Positions 7,054 through 10,794 of a DNA stretch of 64,000 nt are shown one piece after another. Positions within the stretch are counted from its first letter, which is position 1; each line of letters begins with the position of its first letter. The notes under the pieces were generated by a model. The model did no database searches. It had not been told where the DNA came from and saw only the letters and a list, made by a program, of their open reading frames with translations. The DNA lies in NCBI GenBank assembly GCA_016839945.1, contig JAEOTE010000025.1:1-64000 (forward strand). Reading direction: 5' to 3'. A program made the position numbers and the translations under genes. This stretch comes from Candidatus Heimdallarchaeota archaeon (GTDB lineage Archaea > Asgardarchaeota > Heimdallarchaeia > Heimdallarchaeales > Heimdallarchaeaceae).

Positions 7054-8721
7054 TTGAAAGGTAAAAGAACAGTTTTGATAAATTCTATTATTTTTATTTT
7101 TCTAATTTTGCATACAGGATTTGCAGTTGCAAAAAAAACAGATCAAACTAATACTGTGGATAAGGATGATTACTACTATGATTTTGAAGTACCCTATATA
7201 ATAACAAATGTTACAATTCTGGAAGATGGCTCAATAGATATTTTGTATGAAATGGAGTTAATATGTCAACCAGGAGGGCAACCCATAGATGTGGTAGATA
7301 TAGGATTTCCAAACAATCATTATAAACTGAAATCAGTAAGAGCATGGTTGGATGAGGTTGAAATTGATAAATCTAGGATAATGAAAAGTGAAGCTATTGA
7401 GATTGGAGTTGAAATATGGCTTTATGATGTGGGTTTTATTGATCCGGGAGAAACTGCAAAATTGAAAGTTTTTTGCAATAATCTAGCTATGGTGTACCCT
7501 GATGTCAATGAAGGCTTTGCATCTTGCTTGTTTTCACAAACTTGGTTTTATTGGGATTTTACATCAGGAACTACAAATAGAACTGTTAGATTCTTTTTCC
7601 CAGACGATTTACCTTCCTTAGATTCAGTGGAAAATAGATGGGCTCCAATATCTGAATTTACTAAATTTCCTTCTCCTTCTTATGGAGATCCTTACGTTGA
7701 ATTTTCAACATTTGGTTATCCTGATACACCATATGATGTAGGCGTTTCATTACCAGAGGAATATGTGAAAATACATAGTGTTTTCTGGAAACTTACAATT
7801 CCACAATACAAAGGTTTTATTTATTTTGGTTTAGCTGTATTAGCATTTGTTATACTCATGTCATTTAGTAAACGTCGATCAGATCGTAAGTATTTACCTC
7901 CAACAATCACTACTTTAGGAGGAGGTATTAGAAAAGATTTGATACCTTCAGAAGTAGCAATTTTTATGGAACGACCTTTAACTCAAGTAGCTTCTTTGGT
8001 CTTATTTGAGATGATGGAGAAAGAATATATCTCAATTAGACAAAGTTCTCCCTTAAGATTAGATGTAAACATAAACCAAACAAAGATAGAAGCTCTTCCC
8101 AAATATCAAGAATTAATAATAAATGGAATAAAAAAGAGAAATCAAGAAGATGAAAGAGTGCTAAGAGGAGCAAAATCTGGGGCTATCGAGCCTGAACCAG
8201 TTCATCAAACTGAATTGAAAAAAGCTCTTCAATCACTTATTAAGTCTGTAGGAAGAAAAATTAAGGGCTATTCTTTTAGAAAAACAAGAAAGTACTATGA
8301 AGAAATAGTTGATAAAGCTTGGATGGATATGCAAAAATCTAAACCTGAATTGCAAAACGCATTCCTATGGATAATGGTTGATGAAGATTATGAGGGTAGA
8401 TTAGATCGTCATTATACAAGTTATTACTATCCACATTGGTACGTTACCAATTACTACTTCTATACTGGAAGATCCTTTAGAACAATGCCAAAGGTTAGTA
8501 GATCGTCATTCGTAAAAATCCAAGGACATGGAAAAATTACTCAAATTTCTCCAGTTAGAAGTTTAATGGGTGGATTAATACATAAACCTCAAAGTATGCA
8601 TAAATCGATAAGAGGGGTTACTAGACCTGCTTCTACTAGTAGTGGAAGTAGAGGTTATAGCGGTGGGGGTTGTGCTTGCGCTTGTGCATGCGCCTGCGCA
8701 TGTGCTGGAGGTGGTAGATGA
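7054..8721 (+). CDS. DUF2207-like membrane protein with C-terminal GGG(CA)6GGGR tail; candidate radical-SAM substrate
   Basis: TTG start, signal peptide, ectodomain, TM '[18 protein letters not shown]', cytosolic '[38 protein letters not shown]', C-terminus [20 protein letters not shown]; ATGA overlap with next gene. Confidence 0.8.
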   Translation: [555 protein letters not shown]

Positions 8722-10025
8722 TGGTGTCATCAAAAATGCATCATAGCAGAAATCTAGATACATTTGCAAGATTGCATCTACGAAAAGAAAAGAAAGGAAA
8801 TGGAATTTTATTAGTAAATGCAACAAGGATTTTTCACTTGAATAAAACTGCAACAGATTTCTTCTCTCGAATAATCGATAACAAAGATGATGAAGAAATA
8901 ATAAGAGAGATGAAAAGAAAATATAGAGTTGCAGAAGAACAACTTCGAATCGATTTAAAGGAACTTAAGCAATCTGTTGAAAACCTAATGAATAAACCAG
9001 ATATTGATCCAGTTCAAGATTTATCCCAAGATATTAGTCCTATGCTTGAAACTCCTTTTTCAGCACCACTTCGAATGGATTTAGCATTAACATATAAATG
9101 CAATAATAAATGTACTAAATGTTACGTTGAACAAACAAGAGATATTAAAGAATTGACTACAGAAGAGTGGAAAAATGTTTTAGATAAACTCTGGGAAATA
9201 GGAATCCCTCATGTAACTTTTACTGGAGGAGAACCAACTTTAAGAGATGATTTACCTAAACTTGTAGAGCATGCTGAAGATTTAGGTATAATTACAGGAT
9301 TAATTTCTAATGGTAGAAAATTAAAAGACAAGAAACTGGTTGAAGAGCTAGTTACAGCTGGAATTGATCACTTTCAGATTACAATTGAAAGCCATGACTC
9401 AAAAATTCATGATGAATTAAATGGTGCAAAAAATGCTTGGAAAGAAACAGTGGAAGGAATAAAGAATATTATTCCAACTCCCGTTTACATTATGACAAAT
9501 ACAACTCTTACTCCTTATAACATAAAAGATATAGAAAAAACTATAGAGTTCCTTGCTTCATTAGGAATTGACCATTTTGCAGCAAATGGAATTATCAAAT
9601 CAGGTGGAGGAAAGCAAGAAGAATTAGCTCTTTCTATTGATGAACTTGATGGAGTTCTAGATAGAGTAATGAAAAAAGCATCTGAATTAAAAATGGGTTT
9701 CTTGTGGTATTCTCCAACAAGATATTGTGATTTTAATCCAATAGATAAAGGATTAGGATTGAAACAATGTTCTGCTTCTCATATAGCAATGGCTATTGAA
9801 CCTGATGGAATGGTCATTCCGTGTCAGAGTTACTTTGAACCTCTAGGAAATATTTTAGAGACTAAATGGAGAAAAATATGGAACCATAAGACATCAAAAT
9901 CTCTCAGAAAAATGCAATATCTACCAGATGAATGCTTAGATTGTCCAGAAAGAGAAATATGTGGAGGAGGTTGTCCTCTAAACTATAAAGCTCCAATGAA
10001 TATATGTCGAGAAGCGTTTTCATGA
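8718..10025 (+). CDS. Radical SAM/SPASM peptide maturase with N-terminal PqqD-like (RRE) domain
   Basis: PqqD-like 'GILLVNATRIFHLNKTATDFFSRI...EEIIREMKRKYRV'; rSAM CNNKCTKC (CX3CX2C); SPASM 'CSASHIAMAIEPDGMVIPC...CLDCPEREICGGGCPL'. Confidence 0.9.
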   Translation: MMVSSKMHHSRNLDTFARLHLRKEKKGNGILLVNATRIFHLNKTATDFFSRIIDNKDDEEIIREMKRKYRVAEEQLRIDLKELKQSVENLMNKPDIDPVQDLSQDISPMLETPFSAPLRMDLALTYKCNNKCTKCYVEQTRDIKELTTEEWKNVLDKLWEIGIPHVTFTGGEPTLRDDLPKLVEHAEDLGIITGLISNGRKLKDKKLVEELVTAGIDHFQITIESHDSKIHDELNGAKNAWKETVEGIKNIIPTPVYIMTNTTLTPYNIKDIEKTIEFLASLGIDHFAANGIIKSGGGKQEELALSIDELDGVLDRVMKKASELKMGFLWYSPTRYCDFNPIDKGLGLKQCSASHIAMAIEPDGMVIPCQSYFEPLGNILETKWRKIWNHKTSKSLRKMQYLPDECLDCPEREICGGGCPLNYKAPMNICREAFS

Positions 10026-10026
10026 T

Positions 10027-10794
10027 GTGCAAAATATGAGAATAAAATCAAAAGACATAGATTGGGGGGCAGATGTGGAACAGCAATTCATTCGTCAAGC
10101 TAGTTGGACTCGAGCATATAGAAACCAAATTTATAGACAAATTGGTATGATAAAAGCAAGAAATTTACTTGAAGTTGGTTGTGGAACAGGAGTTATTACT
10201 AAAGAACTTCAAGAAAAAACTTCAGCTAAAATAACTGCAATTGATTTTGATAAATCGATGATAGATATTGCAAAAGATTATGTGAGTGATGTTCGATTTC
10301 TTACTGAGAATGTGGAAGAACTATCTTTCAAAGATAAATCATTTGATTTTGTAGTTTGTCATTATTTTCTATTATGGATTTCAAACCCAGAAAAAGCTCT
10401 AAGCGAAATTGCTAGAGTCTGCAAACGAGATGCTACAATTGTTGCTCTTTCAGAACCTGATTATGGGGCATGGATTGAATATCCTGAAATGGGATTAGGA
10501 AAATATCACATTGAGTATTTGCAAAAAGAAGGAGCTGATCCTTTTATTGGAAGAAAAATATTATCACTTTTCGAATCAGCAGGATTGGAAACTGAATTAT
10601 CAGTAGTTGCACAAACGTGGAACCAAAATCTTCTAAAAGAAAATATAGGTGAAGAGTGGAAAAGAGTATTAGAAGCAGAATTAATAACTAAGAAAGAGTT
10701 TGATGAAATAATTAAGAAAGAAAATAAACTCATAAAGAAAAATCAAAGGATGATTTTCATTCCAGTTTTTACTGCAATAGGAAGGAAAAAATAA
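10027..10794 (+). CDS. Class I SAM-dependent methyltransferase, third gene of the CACA/rSAM cassette
   Basis: GTG start 1 nt after previous stop; motif 'NLLEVGCGTGVITKELQEKTSAKITAIDFD'. Confidence 0.85.
   Translation: MQNMRIKSKDIDWGADVEQQFIRQASWTRAYRNQIYRQIGMIKARNLLEVGCGTGVITKELQEKTSAKITAIDFDKSMIDIAKDYVSDVRFLTENVEELSFKDKSFDFVVCHYFLLWISNPEKALSEIARVCKRDATIVALSEPDYGAWIEYPEMGLGKYHIEYLQKEGADPFIGRKILSLFESAGLETELSVVAQTWNQNLLKENIGEEWKRVLEAELITKKEFDEIIKKENKLIKKNQRMIFIPVFTAIGRKK

Follow-up and report, generated by a model that had tools for sequence, protein, structure and literature searches.

Why should a membrane protein end in a run of alternating cysteines and alanines, and why should its gene run directly into that of an enzyme of a type acting on ribosomal peptides? 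The question is raised by three adjacent genes in a 64,000-nucleotide stretch of DNA (the window; contig JAEOTE010000025.1) from a Candidatus Heimdallarchaeota archaeon, whose source is a 3.0-Mb metagenome-assembled genome (MAG; G000, 186 contigs, 88% complete). The first gene codes for a membrane protein with a Cys-Ala tail (the tail protein), the second for a radical S-adenosylmethionine (SAM) enzyme (rSAM) that combines an RRE, the recognition element of ribosomally synthesized and post-translationally modified peptides (RiPPs), with a SPASM region, and the third for a methyltransferase. We propose that these genes probably form a membrane-protein maturation module, in which the rSAM modifies the C-terminal Cys repeat at its cysteines.

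A tail conserved as protein

The tail protein is encoded by an open reading frame (ORF) of 555 aa at 7054-8721 (+), with a TTG start and GGGGAG immediately 5' of it. Its C-terminus reads SGGG(CA)6GGGR, the (CA)6 repeat (residues 540-551, the proposed rSAM substrate) lying at 8671-8706 (+) and GGGR at 8707-8718 (+). The stop codon TGA overlaps the ATG of the rSAM ORF (8718-10025 (+), 435 aa) in an ATGA at 8718-8721, and the methyltransferase ORF (10027-10794 (+), GTG start) begins 1 nt past the rSAM stop. The original prediction, which had described a membrane protein ending in six Gly-framed Cys-Ala pairs, the ATGA overlap and a methyltransferase 1 nt downstream of the rSAM, is thus borne out in its layout, the third product being a class I SAM methyltransferase (PF08241 in Pfam, E 4e-24).

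From the Cys and Ala frequencies of the tail protein itself, the chance of (CA)6 is about 6e-23 per site, and a reading of the window in all six frames shows the pattern C.C.C.C at one other place only, in a frame riddled with stops. In family f1 no two of the 19 tails share a DNA sequence, and their protein sequence is (CA)6GGGR in 18 and (CA)5GGGR in the remaining one. When 55 archaeal and bacterial tail proteins are aligned (identity to the window protein 20-87%, mean column identity 24%), the tail holds 12 of the 14 invariant columns and on this comparison of sequences is almost the sole invariant part. It is also kept in loci with a reversed gene order and in genomes with an unlinked rSAM gene.

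A simple grammar describes the tails: C-A units (less often C-V), with 4 to 10 Cys in total, are interrupted by the spacers G, VS, DS, SS or HSS and are followed by GG(G) and then usually R. Successive cysteines are 2, 3, 4 or 5 residues apart, and the residue after each is nearly always Ala or Val. Firmicutes tails have an extra RAGC(S/T)xKDFY after the repeat; in Lachnospiraceae (e.g. L038:1973-3448 +) this appears as a second conserved motif, GGGRAGC(S/T)xKDFYxT, with an extra Cys, about 25 aa from the end.

Tail and enzyme occur together

When 85,462 species genomes were scanned for DNA encoding CACACAGGG, blind to the enzyme, at least 117 stretches matched. They span Lachnospiraceae/Oscillospiraceae, Chloroflexota, Methanomassiliicoccales, Bathyarchaeota, Thermoproteota, Aminicenantes, Zixibacteria, Planctomycetota and others, so that the earlier impression of such tails recurring in bacterial genomes was correct. 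Among the matches listed, about 109 prove to be genuine tails at the C-terminus of a long ORF; for 90 of them a member of the same rSAM family is encoded on the same stretch, within 8 kb. Seven matches (L046, L047, L058, L068, L087, L116 and L132) were rejected as fortuitous, lying in short or wrong ORFs. Viral contigs gave four hits, of which only one (L234) looks like a real tail. Searching 14 tail genomes in full found the rSAM in 13, including seven of the eight genomes without a local rSAM, which carry one elsewhere.

The pairing of tail and enzyme was examined in three sets of genomes. Of 57 close relatives, 27 have the tail protein, and it is these 27 genomes that have an rSAM orthologue (E<1e-100); the sole member of the genus without the tail protein (G016) is also without the rSAM. 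The strict CA tail is present in 39 of 228 Asgard genomes (0 for a reversed-pattern control) and the rSAM, at E<=1e-60, in 71. When (CHSA)n and other recognised tails are counted besides the strict CA tail, the rSAM is found in 63 of 70 tail genomes and in 8 of 158 tail-less ones (Fisher p 7e-39). The tail gene is broken in two of those eight (G002 and G021), and five more are incomplete f11 genomes. The last 24 bases of L020, CTGTCTCTTATACACATCTGACGC, at the end of contig G002:C332, are Nextera-adapter-like, an assembly artefact truncating the tail gene of G002. In an evenly drawn sample of 150 Lachnospiraceae genomes, all 13 with the rSAM carry a tail (10 strict, 3 variant with the tail immediately downstream), and the strict tail has no match among the rSAM-negative genomes.

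These tests count genomes as independent, which relatives are not, and the force of the co-occurrence is in its repetition in distant groups, across two domains of life. Such a test had been suggested by the original prediction: the pairing holds in close relatives, in Asgard archaea and in Lachnospiraceae, with neither a lack of co-occurrence nor a set of conserved tails in rSAM-less genomes emerging. From this genetic association, the tail is very probably the substrate of the rSAM.

The enzyme and its clade

The enzyme is a member of the RRE-SPASM superfamily. Its PqqD-like RRE (about residues 1-92, 8718-8993 (+)) matches PF05402 above cut-off (E 9.7e-7) and is modelled as strands and helices by AlphaFold2. 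The CX3CX2C cluster motif (CNNKCTKC, 9099-9122 (+)) has its C128, C132 and C135 invariant across 57 homologues, in a protein matching Radical_SAM (PF04055, E 1.8e-27) and SPASM (PF13186, E 4.3e-10). Seven cysteines (CX13GX4C, CX2CX5CX3C, C) mark the SPASM region at 9768-10007 (+). All three elements had been recognized at the outset, together with the remark that enzymes of this type often form Cys thioethers, which agrees with the presence of thioether formers among the closest solved relatives. The AlphaFold2 model (predicted local distance difference test, pLDDT, 91) matches SkfB, SuiB, CteB, PqqE and anSME, as well as the epimerase EpeE; SkfB is the top match in both structure and sequence, SuiB comes next among structures with CteB close, and the fold aligns with SuiB and SkfB over nearly the full length. 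None of the NCBIfam maturase models reaches its cut-off (the best, PqqE, at 143.7 vs 381.35 bits), and those cut-offs were also missed by the rSAMs tested from other phyla. On the module, PADLOC gave generic matches only (rSAM (viperin) and methyltransferase) and PHROGs a generic rSAM match only.

The rSAMs of tail loci form one clade (support 97) against 12 other rSAMs, mostly from the same genomes and several of them on long branches. Those of Candidatus Heimdallarchaeota HM4_B41 and AB_125 (L040, L099) cluster with the window enzyme. There are 6 changes of tail type on the tree, and the distances between tail-protein bodies correlate with those between rSAMs (Mantel r 0.77, no permutation above 0.11). 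Nested in the clade are degenerate copies that adjoin an active enzyme and have kept the RRE and lost CX3CX2C (L037:4111-5313 +, L062:4251-5447 + and 16 others, mainly in Chloroflexota); such a paralogue is a probable pseudoenzyme partner.

Another 27 rSAMs, of a weaker tier and 33-37% identical to the query, come from a single family of genomes, f28, which contains no CA tail. Their partner is another membrane protein, about 720 aa long, which ends in (F/Y)R and whose tail is nearly identical across genera. A (CHSA)n pattern is matched in 26 of the 27 genomes; the loci (L210-L215, L230 and L231, e.g. L211:2837-5005 +) lie beside the sister-clade rSAM. Genome G247 has a hybrid tail, and the (CHSA)n tail of G226 (L228) has an AGGGH end.

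What may happen to the tail

On this proposal the product of the first gene would be a type I membrane protein, and its (CA)6GGGR, disordered and on the cytoplasmic side, would serve as substrate. Holding the tail protein would fall to the RRE, and the rSAM active site would work iteratively along the repeat at its cysteines, in the way that TvgB treats TVGG repeats (PMC9062424). The most likely step would link the sulfur of each Cys to carbon in a small residue next to it (Ala here; Val, Ser or His elsewhere), and the product would be a thioether-stapled tail remaining attached to the membrane protein. As the cysteines are 2 to 5 residues apart with Ala or Val next to them, local modification at each Cys fits better than a fixed distant ring. 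We place a Cys-centred thioether first because the nearest enzymes include thioether formers and because in ruminococcin C (PMC8188230) Ala has been proven to accept a thioether at its C-alpha; by this analogy, the chance that a thioether is the product may fall a little short of even.

Several observations weigh against this proposal. The variable Cys spacing (2, 3, 4, 5) misfits any one ring size, metal could be bound by a poly-Cys tail that carries no modification, and the tail chemistry is inferred. The Firmicutes rSAMs keep CX13GX4C and are without the CX2CX5CX3C of SPASM, and a single chemistry for all members is therefore not certain. No rSAM was detected in some tail genomes (G229, G247 and the Clostridia genome G059), which are incomplete MAGs, G247 having a related rSAM piece near its tail gene.

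The rSAM could instead modify the tail without forming a thioether, for example by epimerisation, a C-C bond to the Ala methyl, Cys desulfurisation or oxidation to formylglycine, an outcome that we consider rather unlikely but well worth weighing. SPASM enzymes perform many non-thioether reactions (epimerisation, C-C bonds and oxidation among them), and both anSME and EpeE are structural matches of the window enzyme. TvgB is an example of iterative action on repeats, modifying TVGG to cyclopropylglycine (PMC9062424). Against this, the thioether formers SkfB and CteB are among the closest solved enzymes, and the constant residue of the tails is Cys, so the chemistry should centre there. The idea of an alternating D/L beta-helix was dropped, the odd-length spacers (G, VS) breaking strict alternation and hence the register.

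It is improbable that the tail is an unmodified metal-thiolate or Fe-S strip, with the rSAM having another substrate or taking electrons or clusters from the tail. The CXC spacing is indeed typical of metallothioneins (CXCXC), and flexible Cys spacing in a tail that stays cytoplasmic would suit such a strip. However, the RRE predicts a ribosomal peptide substrate, the co-occurrence is near one-to-one, tail type co-varies with rSAM clade ((CHSA)n tails going with another one), and the residues between the cysteines are nearly fixed as Ala, which metal binding does not need.

A classical secreted RiPP, with the tail as a core peptide cut off and exported, is very unlikely. Such a product would match the gene order of RRE-rSAM and methyltransferase, but no peptidase or exporter recurs in 110 loci or in 18-kb contexts, and a 'leader' of this kind would amount to a conserved membrane protein of 500 aa, its C-terminus predicted to be cytoplasmic. 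The predicted cytoplasmic location of the tail and the lack of a transporter or peptidase therefore favour maturation of a membrane-protein tail over a secreted RiPP, and the original label of a RiPP-like system becomes doubtful for a tail that seems to stay cytoplasmic and membrane-anchored. Finally, conservation through a DNA or RNA constraint or a repeat artefact has a negligible probability: the GGG codons may also serve the rSAM gene as its Shine-Dalgarno sequence (GGAGGT, within 8707-8718, is placed as one, and GGA is invariant at one codon of the f1 tails), but a constraint of this kind on the whole repeat is refuted by synonymous variation with a constant protein sequence, tails are kept where the rSAM gene is upstream or elsewhere, and Rfam has no match in 6850-11150.

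If the maturation of a membrane-protein tail is accepted, the finished tail may conceivably have a sensing or structural role, a suggestion we make with little confidence. It is about an even question whether a pan-prokaryotic modification with its own rSAM clade turns Cys-Ala or Cys-His-Ser-Ala repeats, iteratively and at the cytoplasmic C-terminus of membrane proteins, into a new covalent poly-thioether or cofactor-like structure that would be used by the cell and not exported.

The membrane protein and the gene neighbourhood

The tail protein starts with a signal peptide or N-terminal hydrophobic helix (about residues 1-26, 7054-7131 (+); AlphaFold2 helix 2-24), with a hydropathy peak at residue 7 preceded by 3 positive residues. 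A predicted outside beta domain (about residues 43-240, 7180-7773 (+), pLDDT mostly >90) is followed by a single transmembrane helix (residues 250-277, 7801-7884 (+)) seen in both hydropathy and model. Positive charges on the C side of this helix place the C-terminus in the cytoplasm, so the protein is predicted to be a type I membrane protein. About 280 residues would then lie on the cytoplasmic side: an element labelled winged-helix-like from its modelled secondary structure (residues 298-338, 7945-8067 (+)), a helical bundle and, at the end, (CA)6GGGR. In the AlphaFold2 model (mean pLDDT 83.8) only residues 25-37, 245-248 and the last 26 are unfolded, the Cys-Ala tail thus being predicted as disordered. 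The closest PDB folds to the modelled ectodomain are the N-terminal beta domains of ribophorin I (OST1) and M1 aminopeptidase, a likeness of fold only and not a claim of homology; a PDB sequence search with the tail protein gave no match.

The methyltransferase (METHYLTRANSFERASE) has an orthologue after the rSAM in nearly all f1 genomes with a tail-rSAM pair, and 63 kb from the rSAM in G022. Five f5 genomes have a 30-35% identical relative after the rSAM; the gene is frequent in Chloroflexota and is present with an unlinked rSAM in f11 and f20. It was not found beside the Firmicutes and f28 rSAMs and is therefore an optional partner; a part as an essential modifier of the tail is not supported. 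A paralogue (about 44%) occurs elsewhere in f1 genomes, independent of the tail. Where present, the methyltransferase might act on the same tail or its product, a role that we assign only tentatively.

The only frequent same-strand families in the 110 loci are the tail protein, the rSAM with its degenerate copy, the methyltransferase and a small upstream membrane protein. The last immediately precedes the tail gene in 34 of the 110 loci (e.g. L065:3406-3945 +, L226:1-366 +, L227:354-740 +), some copies having a zinc-ribbon-like C-terminus, and is absent from the window. Unrelated housekeeping genes flank the modules. Between the methyltransferase gene and the next, a G+C-richer stretch of the window (10800-10960) resembles by eye an intron-containing tRNA on the minus strand; neither ARAGORN nor the Rfam gathering search called it.

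Comparison with known systems

The module works like an RRE-SPASM maturation system and falls outside DUF2207, the known NCBIfam maturases and secreted RiPP clusters. The Cys-Ala tail with its dedicated rSAM looks like a widespread, undescribed modification of the inner end of a membrane protein; in a literature search that left subscription papers mostly outside, so that earlier notice is possible, no paper joined DUF2207 with radical SAM or described Cys-Ala tails. If the tail is modified, this would be a new protein modification in the physiology of gut Lachnospiraceae, methanogens and Asgard archaea. The repeat, being short and C-terminal, is suited to mass spectrometry, and the tail rule is directly usable for genome annotation.

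The proposed DUF2207-like nature of the scaffold did not hold, similarity falling below the curated cut-off in every protein tested: the window protein has no DUF2207 or other Pfam match at E<0.1, its best relatives reach 17.5 vs 24.4 and 18.7 vs 33 bits (PF09972/PF20990), and hhalign gives 21% probability with YciQ. This DUF2207 protein of E. coli shares the signal peptide, outside domain, transmembrane segment, cytoplasmic part and a Gly-rich end (RSYSGGGAGGGAGGGGGGGW), but differs in its extra hydrophobic segments and has no Cys repeat. Metallothioneins share the CXC spacing only; here a membrane-protein tail is paired with an rSAM and has Ala (rarely Val) after almost every Cys.

Closer parallels are found among rSAM systems. 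TvgA/TvgB and, from rSAM cluster 59, peptides in which an Asp-Cys unit is repeated up to six times (PMC9062424) likewise have a repeat of low complexity on which an rSAM acts, or is expected to act, iteratively; they differ in being small peptides with other residues and other neighbours, and not membrane proteins. The SPASM thioether maturases of sacti- and ranthipeptides (SkfB, AlbA, CteB/SCIFF, RumMC) share the RRE, CX3CX2C and SPASM, and they act on a ribosomal Cys-containing sequence, as is proposed here. In those classes the substrate is a small precursor with leader and core, whereas the candidate substrate here is the C-terminal Cys-Ala repeat of a membrane protein of 350-700 aa (555 aa in the window), with no exporter or peptidase and no NCBIfam maturase model at cut-off. 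The ribosomal products known for RRE-SPASM rSAM enzymes are for the most part small peptides, and many are secreted; in the present module such machinery goes with the terminus of a membrane protein of full size, where the candidate target is strikingly conserved, in both prokaryotic domains and many phyla.

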